The notes below the pieces were generated by a model, which was given only the letters and a program-made list of their open reading frames with translations, searched no databases and had not been told where the DNA came from. From Bacillus sp. Y1 (GTDB lineage: Bacteria > Bacillota > Bacilli > Bacillales > Cytobacillaceae), in the NCBI RefSeq assembly GCF_003586445.1, contig NZ_CP030028.1, positions 1,998,501 through 2,062,500 of the forward strand: 64,000 nt of DNA, read 5' to 3'. Each line of letters begins with the position of its first letter. The first letter of the stretch is position 1. Below, one piece after another: positions 40,704 to 51,569 of this stretch. The position numbers and the translations under genes are program-made.

Positions 40704-40714
40704 TATAGTAAAAG

Positions 40715-40937
40715 TGATGACGGGAAACCGAGTAGTAGTTATCTCCCTGTAACAGAGAGTCGGTGGTTGGTGTGAATCGACACAAAGATAACATGAAATA
40801 CATTCCCTGAGCTGTCTTTGCCGAGCAAAGAACGGACGCGAACCGTTAATCGTTAAGTGGAAGAACAAGTTTCTTCAATAAGGGTGGTACCGCGTGCAAG
40901 AACCACGTCCCTTTTTTAGGGATGTGGTTTTTTATTT
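40715..40937 (+). promoter_or_regulatory. T-box riboswitch (tRNA-Tyr) upstream of tyrS
   Basis: The T-box core AGGGTGGTACCGCG is at 40881-40894; its UGGU would pair with an ACCA 3' end, matching discriminator A of tRNA-Tyr. Stem I landmarks (AGAG, GGTTGGTGTGAA) are at about 40756-40776. The presumed specifier is the Tyr codon TAC at 40799-40801. A terminator, AACCACGTCCC / GGGATGTGGTT with a T-run, is at 40901-40937. Uncharged tRNA-Tyr should prevent termination. Confidence 0.92.
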
Positions 40938-49442: not shown

Positions 49443-49907
49443 GTTACTTAGATATCCAGAATTTAGTGGATAGGGGGAAGTAAATTAAGAAATGGTTCCT
49501 TAGATATCCAGAAATTAGTGGGTTTGAGAATCAAATTAAGAAATAGTTCCTTGGATATCCAGAATTAGTGGGTTGGGGGAATCAAATTAGGATTTGGTTC
49601 CTTAGATATCCAGAATTTAGTGGATAGGGGGAAGTAAATTAAGAAATGGTTCCTTAGATATCCAGAAATTAGTGGGTTTGGGGAAGTAAATTAAGAAATA
49701 GTTCCTTGGATATCCAGAATTAGTGGGTTGGGGGAATCAAATTAGGATTTGGTTCCTTAGATATCCAGAATTTAGTGGGTTTGGGGAATCAAATTAAGAA
49801 ATGGTTCCTTGGATATCCAGAAATTAGTGGGTTGGGGGAATCAAATTAGGATTTGGTTCCTTAGATATCCAAAAATTAGTGAGTTGAGGGAACTAAATCA
49901 CCATTTT
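49443..49907 (+). repeat. Tandem repeat array, nine units of 51-52 bp
   Basis: Nine head-to-tail units, most starting GTTCCTTAGATATCCAGAA and containing TTAGTGGGTT-GGGGAA-CAAATTA. Units start near 49443, 49495, 49546, 49597, 49649, 49701, 49752, 49804 and 49856. Units 1-3 are nearly repeated as 4-6, so the array grew in blocks of three. There are no unique spacers and no usable long ORF. The last unit is the most diverged and nearly matches a lone copy at 2391-2421. Confidence 0.88.
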
Positions 49908-50061: not shown

Positions 50062-50091
50062 TTGAATTTCCCCAACCGATTATGATACATT
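50062..50091 (+). promoter_or_regulatory. Sigma-A-type promoter of the hisS leader
   Basis: TTGAAT (50062-50067), 18-base spacer, TACATT (50086-50091), giving a transcript start near 50097, about 20 bases before the leader-peptide ATG. Confidence 0.5.
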
Positions 50092-50116
50092 ATATGGAAA
50101 CTTGAGGTGACGAAAA

Positions 50117-50167
50117 ATGCAGTACATAACTACCTATACATCACAATTTCATCATCATAACCATTAG
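50117..50167 (+). CDS. Histidine-rich leader peptide, 16 aa
   Basis: A 16-codon ORF, MQYITTYTSQFHHHNH, with GAGGTGA six bases before its ATG. Four of the last five codons are His (CAT CAT CAT AAC CAT TAG). It lies between the promoter and a strong terminator in front of hisS, the arrangement of classical his-operon leader peptides. When charged tRNA-His is scarce the ribosome should stall on these codons and favour readthrough. Confidence 0.82.
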   Translation: MQYITTYTSQFHHHNH

Positions 50168-50215
50168 TCTTACTATTCGATTAAAAAATCGTACATAGGA
50201 AGGCTATTTCTCATG

Positions 50216-50265
50216 AACCGTATTTGCTTAAGTTTCTAACTTATCGAGTGCGGTTTTTTTTATTT
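50216..50265 (+). terminator. Attenuator terminator in the hisS leader
   Basis: A stem of about 17 bp: AACCGTATTTGCTTAAGTT (50216-50234) pairs with 50238-50255 around a TCT loop, with one small internal loop, followed by eight T. It lies 48 bp after the leader-peptide stop and before hisS. The 10 bases 50227-50236 can instead pair with 50097-50106 over the leader-peptide ribosome binding site, a candidate antiterminator. No T-box sequence is present. Confidence 0.8.
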
Positions 50266-50291
50266 AACTAAAAGTAGGAGGCTGACAGAAT

Positions 50292-51569
50292 ATGAAGAAA
50301 ATGGATTATCAAAATGTAAGAGGAACACAGGACTATTTACCGGAGGCCGAGGTGTTGAGAAGAAGAGTAAGAAGAACGTTGGAAGATGTATTTATTCAAT
50401 ATGGTTGTAAACCTTTAGAGACACCAATCTTAAACTACACAGAGTTGCTCGCATCTAAATATGGGGGTGGAGCTGAGATACTTGAAGAAATGTACACATT
50501 ATCTGATCGTGGAAAAAGAGAATTAGCCTTGCGCTACGATTTGACGATTCCGTTTGCGAAAGTAATAGCCATGAACCCGTCAGTTAGAATGCCTTTTAAA
50601 AGATACGAAATTGGCAAAGTGTTTCGTGATGGTCCTATAAAAACAGGAAGGTTTCGAGAGTTTACTCAGTGTGACGTAGATATGGTAGGTGTGGATTCAC
50701 AAATAGCTGAAGTTGAACTTATGATGATGGCATTGGATGTGTTCAGAAAACTTGGATTAGAAGTAACCATTCAATATAACAACCGAAAACTTTTAACAGG
50801 GTTACTAGAGGTCTTTCAAACTCCTGCCGAAAAAATGAATAAAGTTGTGTTAATCCTTGATAAGCTTGAAAAAGTAGGGGCAGGAGGAGTTGTAAATGAA
50901 TTAACTGACCTTGGGTTAGAGTCAACAACCATCCATAACATCAAACAATTCCTAAACTCTAAAAACAATACAGAATACAGTTATTTTAAGCCTTTTACAA
51001 ATAAAAACTCTCTTCTCCAAAAGGGACTAAATGAACTAATGGAGCTTGAAGGCTATTTGGAGGAGCTTGGTATGAAAACAGAATGTATTTTTAATCCTTT
51101 TTTAGCAAGAGGGTTAGATATCTATACGGGTAGCATTTACGAGATTTTTTTAACGGATGAGTCTATTAAATCTAGCATTGGTAGTGGTGGAAGATACGAT
51201 AACGCAATTGGTGGATTGCTTGGAACAGATCAGAAATTTTCAACCGTGGGAATTTCATTTGGGTTAGATGTAATCTATACTGCCATAAGCTACAAGCAGA
51301 TGAACCAGGAGGAATCTACTATTGATTATTATGTCATTCCCATTAATACGGAAAAAGAGTCATTAAAAGTGGCGAGGCAGCTTAGGGAAAGGGGTTACAA
51401 TGTAGAAATGGAACTAGGAAGAAAGAAACTTGGGAAGTTGATGGAAAAAGCCAACAAAGAAGGTTTTCCAAATGTCATTATCATAGGAGAAGAGGAAGTA
51501 AAATTGAATCAAATAAAAATAAAAGAGATGAAATCGGGACAGGAAAGAACAGAATTCTTTCATTTTTAA
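50292..51569 (+). CDS. hisS: Histidyl-tRNA synthetase paralogue (HisS2)
   Basis: A 425-residue class II synthetase. Motif 1 region NVRGTQDYLPEA, motif 2 FRDGPIKTGRFREFTQCDVDMVG, the histidine-binding RGLDIYTGSIYEIF and SGGRYDNAIGG, and a C-terminal anticodon-binding domain ending before TEFFHF. It is full length, so a synthetase rather than the short HisZ regulator. The main Bacillus hisS lies with aspS; this is therefore probably a second, conditionally expressed copy, though I cannot see the rest of the genome. AGGAGG precedes the ATG. Controlled by the His leader peptide. Confidence 0.88.
   Translation: MKKMDYQNVRGTQDYLPEAEVLRRRVRRTLEDVFIQYGCKPLETPILNYTELLASKYGGGAEILEEMYTLSDRGKRELALRYDLTIPFAKVIAMNPSVRMPFKRYEIGKVFRDGPIKTGRFREFTQCDVDMVGVDSQIAEVELMMMALDVFRKLGLEVTIQYNNRKLLTGLLEVFQTPAEKMNKVVLILDKLEKVGAGGVVNELTDLGLESTTIHNIKQFLNSKNNTEYSYFKPFTNKNSLLQKGLNELMELEGYLEELGMKTECIFNPFLARGLDIYTGSIYEIFLTDESIKSSIGSGGRYDNAIGGLLGTDQKFSTVGISFGLDVIYTAISYKQMNQEESTIDYYVIPINTEKESLKVARQLRERGYNVEMELGRKKLGKLMEKANKEGFPNVIIIGEEEVKLNQIKIKEMKSGQERTEFFHF

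Follow-up and report, generated by a model that had tools for sequence, protein, structure and literature searches.

In the genome of Bacillus sp. Y1, the gene for a second histidine--tRNA ligase (hisS2) follows a short open reading frame (ORF) that ends in a run of histidine codons and a terminator-like hairpin. This arrangement raises the question of whether hisS2 is controlled by a ribosome that senses the charging of tRNA-His while translating a leader peptide, and if so, how the signal might reach RNA polymerase. The locus was analysed within a window of 64,000 nucleotides (contig NZ_CP030028.1, forward strand) and compared with its relatives in other genomes.

A leader ORF and two hairpins in front of hisS2

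By direct reading, folding and comparison with relatives, we identified the following features (positions in the window):

50081..50086, + strand: TATGAT, possible -10 box of the leader transcript (by eye)
50104..50109, + strand: GAGGTG, Shine-Dalgarno-like site of the leader ORF (direct reading; similar sites in relatives)
50117..50167, + strand: leader ORF of 16 codons, MQYITTYTSQFHHHNH and a stop codon, with its ATG at 50117 (direct reading)
50165..50206, + strand: hairpin A:B, with the leader's stop codon at its base (folds, covariation)
50216..50261, + strand: predicted terminator-like hairpin T1:T2 with eight T (reading, fold, covariation)
50276..50281, + strand: AGGAGG, Shine-Dalgarno-like site of hisS2 (direct reading)
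50292..51569, + strand: hisS2, second histidine--tRNA ligase of 425 aa with 2 His (NF009085, 625.5 bits against a cut-off of 540)

The original prediction described a 16-codon ORF with its own ribosome binding site and the ending His-His-His-Asn-His-stop, a hairpin with eight T located 48 nt past the stop, and then a second copy of hisS. All of these elements are present: CAT CAT CAT at 50150-50158 is followed by an Asn codon, CAT at 50162-50164 and the stop codon TAG at 50165-50167, the hairpin starts at 50216 and its eight T lie at 50254-50261, and the genome contains another hisS and a hisZ-like gene besides hisS2, the product of which has HisRS as its best PDB matches. The observation of a leader ORF and hairpins before a second HisRS gene is thus confirmed. 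The expectation that synthetases are otherwise controlled by T-boxes also held, with a T-box found upstream of the other hisS of the same genome and another at 40708-40915 of the window, 5' of an ORF which we take from its motifs to be TyrRS-like. Absent from the original prediction was the second hairpin, A:B, with the stop codon of the leader at its base; its inner mismatch is A.G in the window and G.G in most relatives.

Among the ORFs of 6-45 codons on both strands of the window, the leader ORF alone has HHH in its last nine residues, and the fold of the leader region has z = -2.64 relative to shuffles. Stretches similar to TATGATA are found at the place of the -10 box in many relatives; a consensus scan listed no promoter before the leader ORF, TATGAT included. 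The internal loop of the T1:T2 hairpin probably explains why a consensus terminator scan did not list it either. A tandem array (49443-49892) with a 52-bp unit, 8.7 copies and 85% matches separates the upstream gene from the hisS2 promoter region.

Conservation of the leader and its linkage to hisS2

A protein search of genome contigs yielded 77 loci, which together with the window and locus L005 gave 79 loci for examination. Loss of the His codons from orthologous leaders had been set beforehand as the finding that would speak against a histidine leader; instead, HHH was found among the last nine leader residues, within 500 nt upstream of hisS2, in 68 of the 79 loci. The eleven others comprise the clostridial-type relatives L068-L074, two loci in which the upstream region was replaced as far as the 3' end of the terminator (L020, L075), a fragment with a similar terminator end (L079) and a leader with Gln-His-His in place of HHH (L082). 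In Oceanobacillus sp. J11TS1, a single contig carries two hisS2 genes (L020, L021) at a distance of about 13 kb, and one of the two lost its leader.

Around HHH the leader residues vary, the next most conserved being a Gln two positions before the run (47/68), and the run is followed by two residues in 56 leaders, one in 9, none in 2 and six in 1. The His codons of the 68 leaders are 198 CAT and 6 CAC, compared with 244 CAT and 63 CAC in the long ORFs of the window, a bias given without a probability because the rows are related.

Furthermore, the RNA model R1 was run against 397 genomes of the order, some of which may also have contributed to the model. Matches were obtained in 68 genomes, while hisS2 was present as 62 genes in 61 genomes, and 61 of these 62 genes have the RNA element 27-390 nt upstream. 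The single hisS2 without an R1 element (genome G209) follows a leader that ends QLHHT and has the long-type structure described below. No conserved neighbours of hisS2 were detected, the commonest flanking family occurring in 8 of 61 loci. Within the genus, hisS2 was found at E <= 1e-120 in two of five genomes, its own included, and the leader region of genome G004, from the same genus, resembles that of Robertmurraya korlensis (L013), so that Robertmurraya is the probable genus.

Ten R1 matches were not located upstream of hisS2. Two of them (G149, G292) overlap the genome's own element on the other strand, and the other eight are L116-L123. Among these, L116 (HAD-like ORF, two His) and L117 (broken hisS2-like start) look like remnants of the element, and L120, L121 and L122 look like chance or partial matches; L122 shows a terminator-like remnant with neither leader nor hisS2, and its genome (G119) is devoid of hisS2 matches. 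Genome G394 contains two copies of the element with hisS2 (one of them L125), where the hisS2 match starts at residue 46, the element lies 390 nt from the match and the gene seems to be interrupted at its 5' end.

Structure and covariation of the compact element

Alignment A1 contains 62 of the 63 elements found by a pattern search, L013 being omitted as the same element as L005. The search was empty in 14 loci, of which L010, L012 and L024 do carry a leader, and L064, L067 and L076 had been omitted from it beforehand. Alignment A2 contains 36 diverse elements of 50. In A2, 95% of the cells are paired, 15 of 20 pairs show changes in both partners, and both hairpins covary, with none of 500 shuffles reaching any of five measures, in a test where the structure came from the same alignment and is favoured by it. 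When the partners were slid, pairing fell to 36-58%. What a mutual-information scan picked up was mainly the difference between Bacillus-like and Lysinibacillus-like rows.

Among the 62 elements of A1, the triplet at the base of A:B is TAG in 51, TAA in 9, CAG in 1 and AAG in 1; in leaders with two residues after HHH (56 of 68), this triplet is the stop codon. The third base of the triplet pairs as GC in 52 elements, AU in 9 and GU in 1, therefore the stop codon and its partner change together. In addition, the distance from the first His codon to the base of A:B is 15 nt in 60 of 62, the inner mismatch is G.G in 58 of 62, and the sequence of A:B together with its 3' flank is unusually fixed for a hairpin. 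The energy of the terminator is -20.6 kcal/mol in the 47 Bacillus-like rows and -15.9 kcal/mol in the 15 Lysinibacillus-like rows.

Compact and long leaders

Nine distant leaders are longer (Fictibacillus L076, Lutispora L064, Syntrophomonas L067, and G380, G209, G279, G534, G617 and G422) and have four alternating helices, A:B, B:C, C:T1 and T1:T2, the segments of which, T1 arms included, were named by eye. Their C:T1 helices range from -12.1 to -19.2 kcal/mol with z of -0.7 to -2.8, some of these pairings being, by composition alone, not far from chance. The leader of G209 has only two His, and that of G422 reads His-Tyr-Tyr-His.

In the 62 compact elements, potential upstream partners of T1 occupy scattered sites with an average gain of 0.7-2.0 kcal/mol per modelled state, and shuffled sequences offer partners just as good (mean z +0.51 for the best partner). 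No antiterminator of the textbook kind stands out from chance in the compact type. A pause-like TTNTTT motif near A:B is present in only 11 of 62. Moreover, an Rfam scan of the element gave no family matches at gathering cut-offs or at E up to 5, the proteobacterial His leader RF00514 and the T-box RF00230 included. The original prediction of a textbook proteobacterial his-leader layout is not supported, because the antiterminator does not rise above chance and the Rfam His leader is unmatched.

A glutamine version of the element

Two of the R1 matches without hisS2, L118 and L119 (in G212 and G236), correspond to leaders with a Gln run located before an rRNA-methyltransferase-like gene and glnS, where glnS scores well over its cut-off and the methyltransferase below its own cut-offs. 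GlnRS was found in 153 of the 397 genomes, and among the best 30 of these 153, five (G212, G321, G160, G073 and G236) combine the same kind of element with a leader that has three or more Gln close to its end; G342 has a Gln-containing ORF with no T run after it. Eight more genomes of that family were inspected further upstream: G134 has Gln-Gln-Gln with a displaced stop and a similar terminator, and nothing convincing was seen upstream in the other seven (the family members G029 and G186 lie outside this sample). The codon run thus fits the downstream gene, His with hisS2 and Gln with glnS, and judged by sequence the Gln version is a natural codon swap of the same compact RNA. In the literature covered we found no paper on a Gln leader before glnS. 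The codon-free model R2 matched 73 of the 397 genomes at E up to 0.05; its matches were examined to E 1e-7, with the weaker ones starting at 0.004, which leaves room for a third amino-acid version.

In G380, a long-type His leader (MFNTTMFVQLHHHT; L123:293-527) that ends QLHHHT precedes a basic amino acid antiporter-like ORF, which scores below the curated cut-offs.

A histidine-poor HisRS

The best 120 of 5777 relatives of the hisS2 protein, itself included, contain on average 0.70 His, and 72 of the 120 have none, compared with 6.59 His (range 5-10) in the best 120 of 7999 relatives of the other hisS product. The hisS2 proteins from the loci contain on average 0.96 His (n=72). In the 65 hisS2 proteins outside L068-L074, His amounts to 0.18% versus 2.34% in the long ORFs of the window and Trp to 0.08% versus 1.02%, the remaining residues being within about a third of the window values. 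Trp is also rare by count, with 0.12 per protein among the best 120 hisS2 relatives versus 1.03 in the other-hisS set. Members without the HHH leader are His-poor as well, with 1-5 His in L068-L074 and 0-2 His in L182, L184, L185, L188, L189, L190 and L191; therefore the trait belongs to the subfamily and is on its own no proof of a role of the leader. Gln depletion was not seen in the GlnRS behind Gln leaders, with a mean of 10.0 Gln (6 proteins, G134 counted) versus 11.7 (24). Cognate bias has been described, as far as the cited text extends, for amino-acid biosynthetic pathways (PMC4209129), and a synthetase without its own cognate residue would extend it beyond those pathways.

Proposed mechanism and alternative explanations

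We consider it likely that the leader, A:B and the terminator-like hairpin constitute a transcription attenuator operated by the ribosome, through which a shortage of charged tRNA-His would raise hisS2. We favour this reading because of the conserved HHH, the linkage to hisS2, the 15-nt spacing and the covariation, and further because of the Gln codon swap, the nine long leaders, the His-poor enzyme and the T-box of the other hisS. It is weakened by the compact antiterminator that was not found, by the 11 of 79 loci without HHH, by the Gln-leader GlnRS that is not Gln-poor and by the leaderless subfamily members that are also His-poor. Stall geometry follows from the position of the ribosome's leading edge. 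Halted at the first His codon, the ribosome would stand flush against A:B and leave the hairpin intact, and once at the stop codon it would mask the 5' strand of A:B; an intact A:B would favour readthrough. In the long leaders, a stall on the codon run would keep A:B and free C, which could then capture T1. In the compact type, without such a C, the role might fall to an effect of A:B on RNA polymerase or to a C of very low strength, and we infer the sign of its regulation from the long relatives, because in its own fold it is the masking of A, and not a His stall, that frees B. The hisS2 product would serve as a backup HisRS, needing almost no histidine for its own translation; hisS2 may be a conditional HisRS and the leader its charging sensor, perhaps of independent design, as the original prediction proposed. 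Ribosome stalling on a leader is described in B. subtilis as preventing termination (PMC6851288, in its account of that leader).

A more specific version is considerably less probable and is put forward tentatively, namely a codon-swappable ribosome sensor without any RNA antiterminator, where the stall would keep A:B and A:B would make the polymerase ignore the terminator, the His version driving a starvation-proof and essentially histidine-free HisRS. If true, a Firmicute leader-peptide attenuator has swapped its sensor codons together with its gene (His/hisS2, Gln/glnS), the swap would be a natural experiment on what an attenuator senses, and the compact form would dispense with the antiterminator, the defining part of textbook attenuation, in bacteria whose ribosomes and polymerases are generally regarded as loosely coupled.

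Other explanations may account for parts of the data. The fixed sequence of A:B with its 3' flank and the G.G mismatch (58/62) would suit a protein or uncharged tRNA that binds A:B directly, with the leader ORF secondary; we regard such a trans factor as improbable, since the His run and the 15-nt spacing are equally conserved (60/62), the codon run changes together with the gene, divergent rows change the stem sequence while keeping the pairing, and no T-box match was obtained at the element. Somewhat less probable still is an arrest peptide, the nascent chain of which would hold the ribosome near the stop codon, mask A, free B and disturb the terminator. The stop codon does lie in the base of A:B, where a ribosome would free B, and weak B-T1 pairing exists in some rows, but HHH alone is fixed while the number of residues after it varies, the match of Gln leaders to glnS fits codon sensing, and with A masked the sequestration of T1 averages only 1.1-2.0 kcal/mol.

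That the ORF and hairpins are a remnant or chance arrangement without a regulatory role could be suggested by the element standing beside a lost or broken hisS2 in some genomes (L116, L117); the conservation, the hisS2 linkage and the covariation make this very hard to sustain. Hungry codons favour frameshifting, so ribosomes starved at the His codons might shift, pass the stop and translate through T1. This is disfavoured and the least credible of the explanations, as, of the 62 elements, just 7 keep one of the alternative frames free of stops across T1 and 9 the other. The attenuator reading thus remains the preferred one.

Comparison with known systems

The T-box (RF00230), which senses tRNA charging at synthetase genes, is found on the other hisS and not at the hisS2 element. 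The proteobacterial His leader RF00514 resembles the element in its His codons, terminator and cognate gene and differs in controlling the his operon (PMC9413887, main text). RNA attenuators of his operons have also been predicted in the B. cereus group, Eubacteriales and Erysipelotrichales (PMC9413887); like the window element, they have consecutive His codons (three to five there) directly 5' of the attenuator, whereas they include a predicted antiterminator and control his operons, hisS not appearing in the main text. The leucine-rich ilv attenuator of S. aureus is similarly an amino-acid-responsive, cis-acting leader in a Firmicute, but, in the text describing it, one of a biosynthetic operon and of Leu (PMC5794164). 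In the tlrB (yxjB) leader of B. subtilis, stalling of a ribosome on the leader ORF likewise prevents termination; there, according to the passages on this leader, a macrolide arrest motif is used and the stalled ribosome covers the base of the terminator (PMC6851288), while the base of the hisS2 terminator lies 58 nt past the last codon of the CAT run. Moreover, tlrB needs NusG pausing (PMC6851288), and the pause-like motif is the one found near A:B in only 11 of 62 hisS2 elements.

The literature covered, with supplementary files and most subscription papers outside its scope, yielded no report of the long/compact split, the missing antiterminator, the Gln version or the histidine-poor enzyme. 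The element itself had a forerunner: in 2010 Naville and Gautheret predicted a histidine leader before a Bacillus hisS paralogue (hisS*) and hisZ (PMC2965389). Leader sequence, spacing, the A:B hairpin, a Gln version and the long/compact split are all absent from their section on it. As in the window, it comprises an ORF with His codons and a terminator before a hisS paralogue, with a T-box on the other hisS, and from this description the window element is almost certainly the same histidine leader. The hisS2 leader is thus a real member of a kind already predicted.
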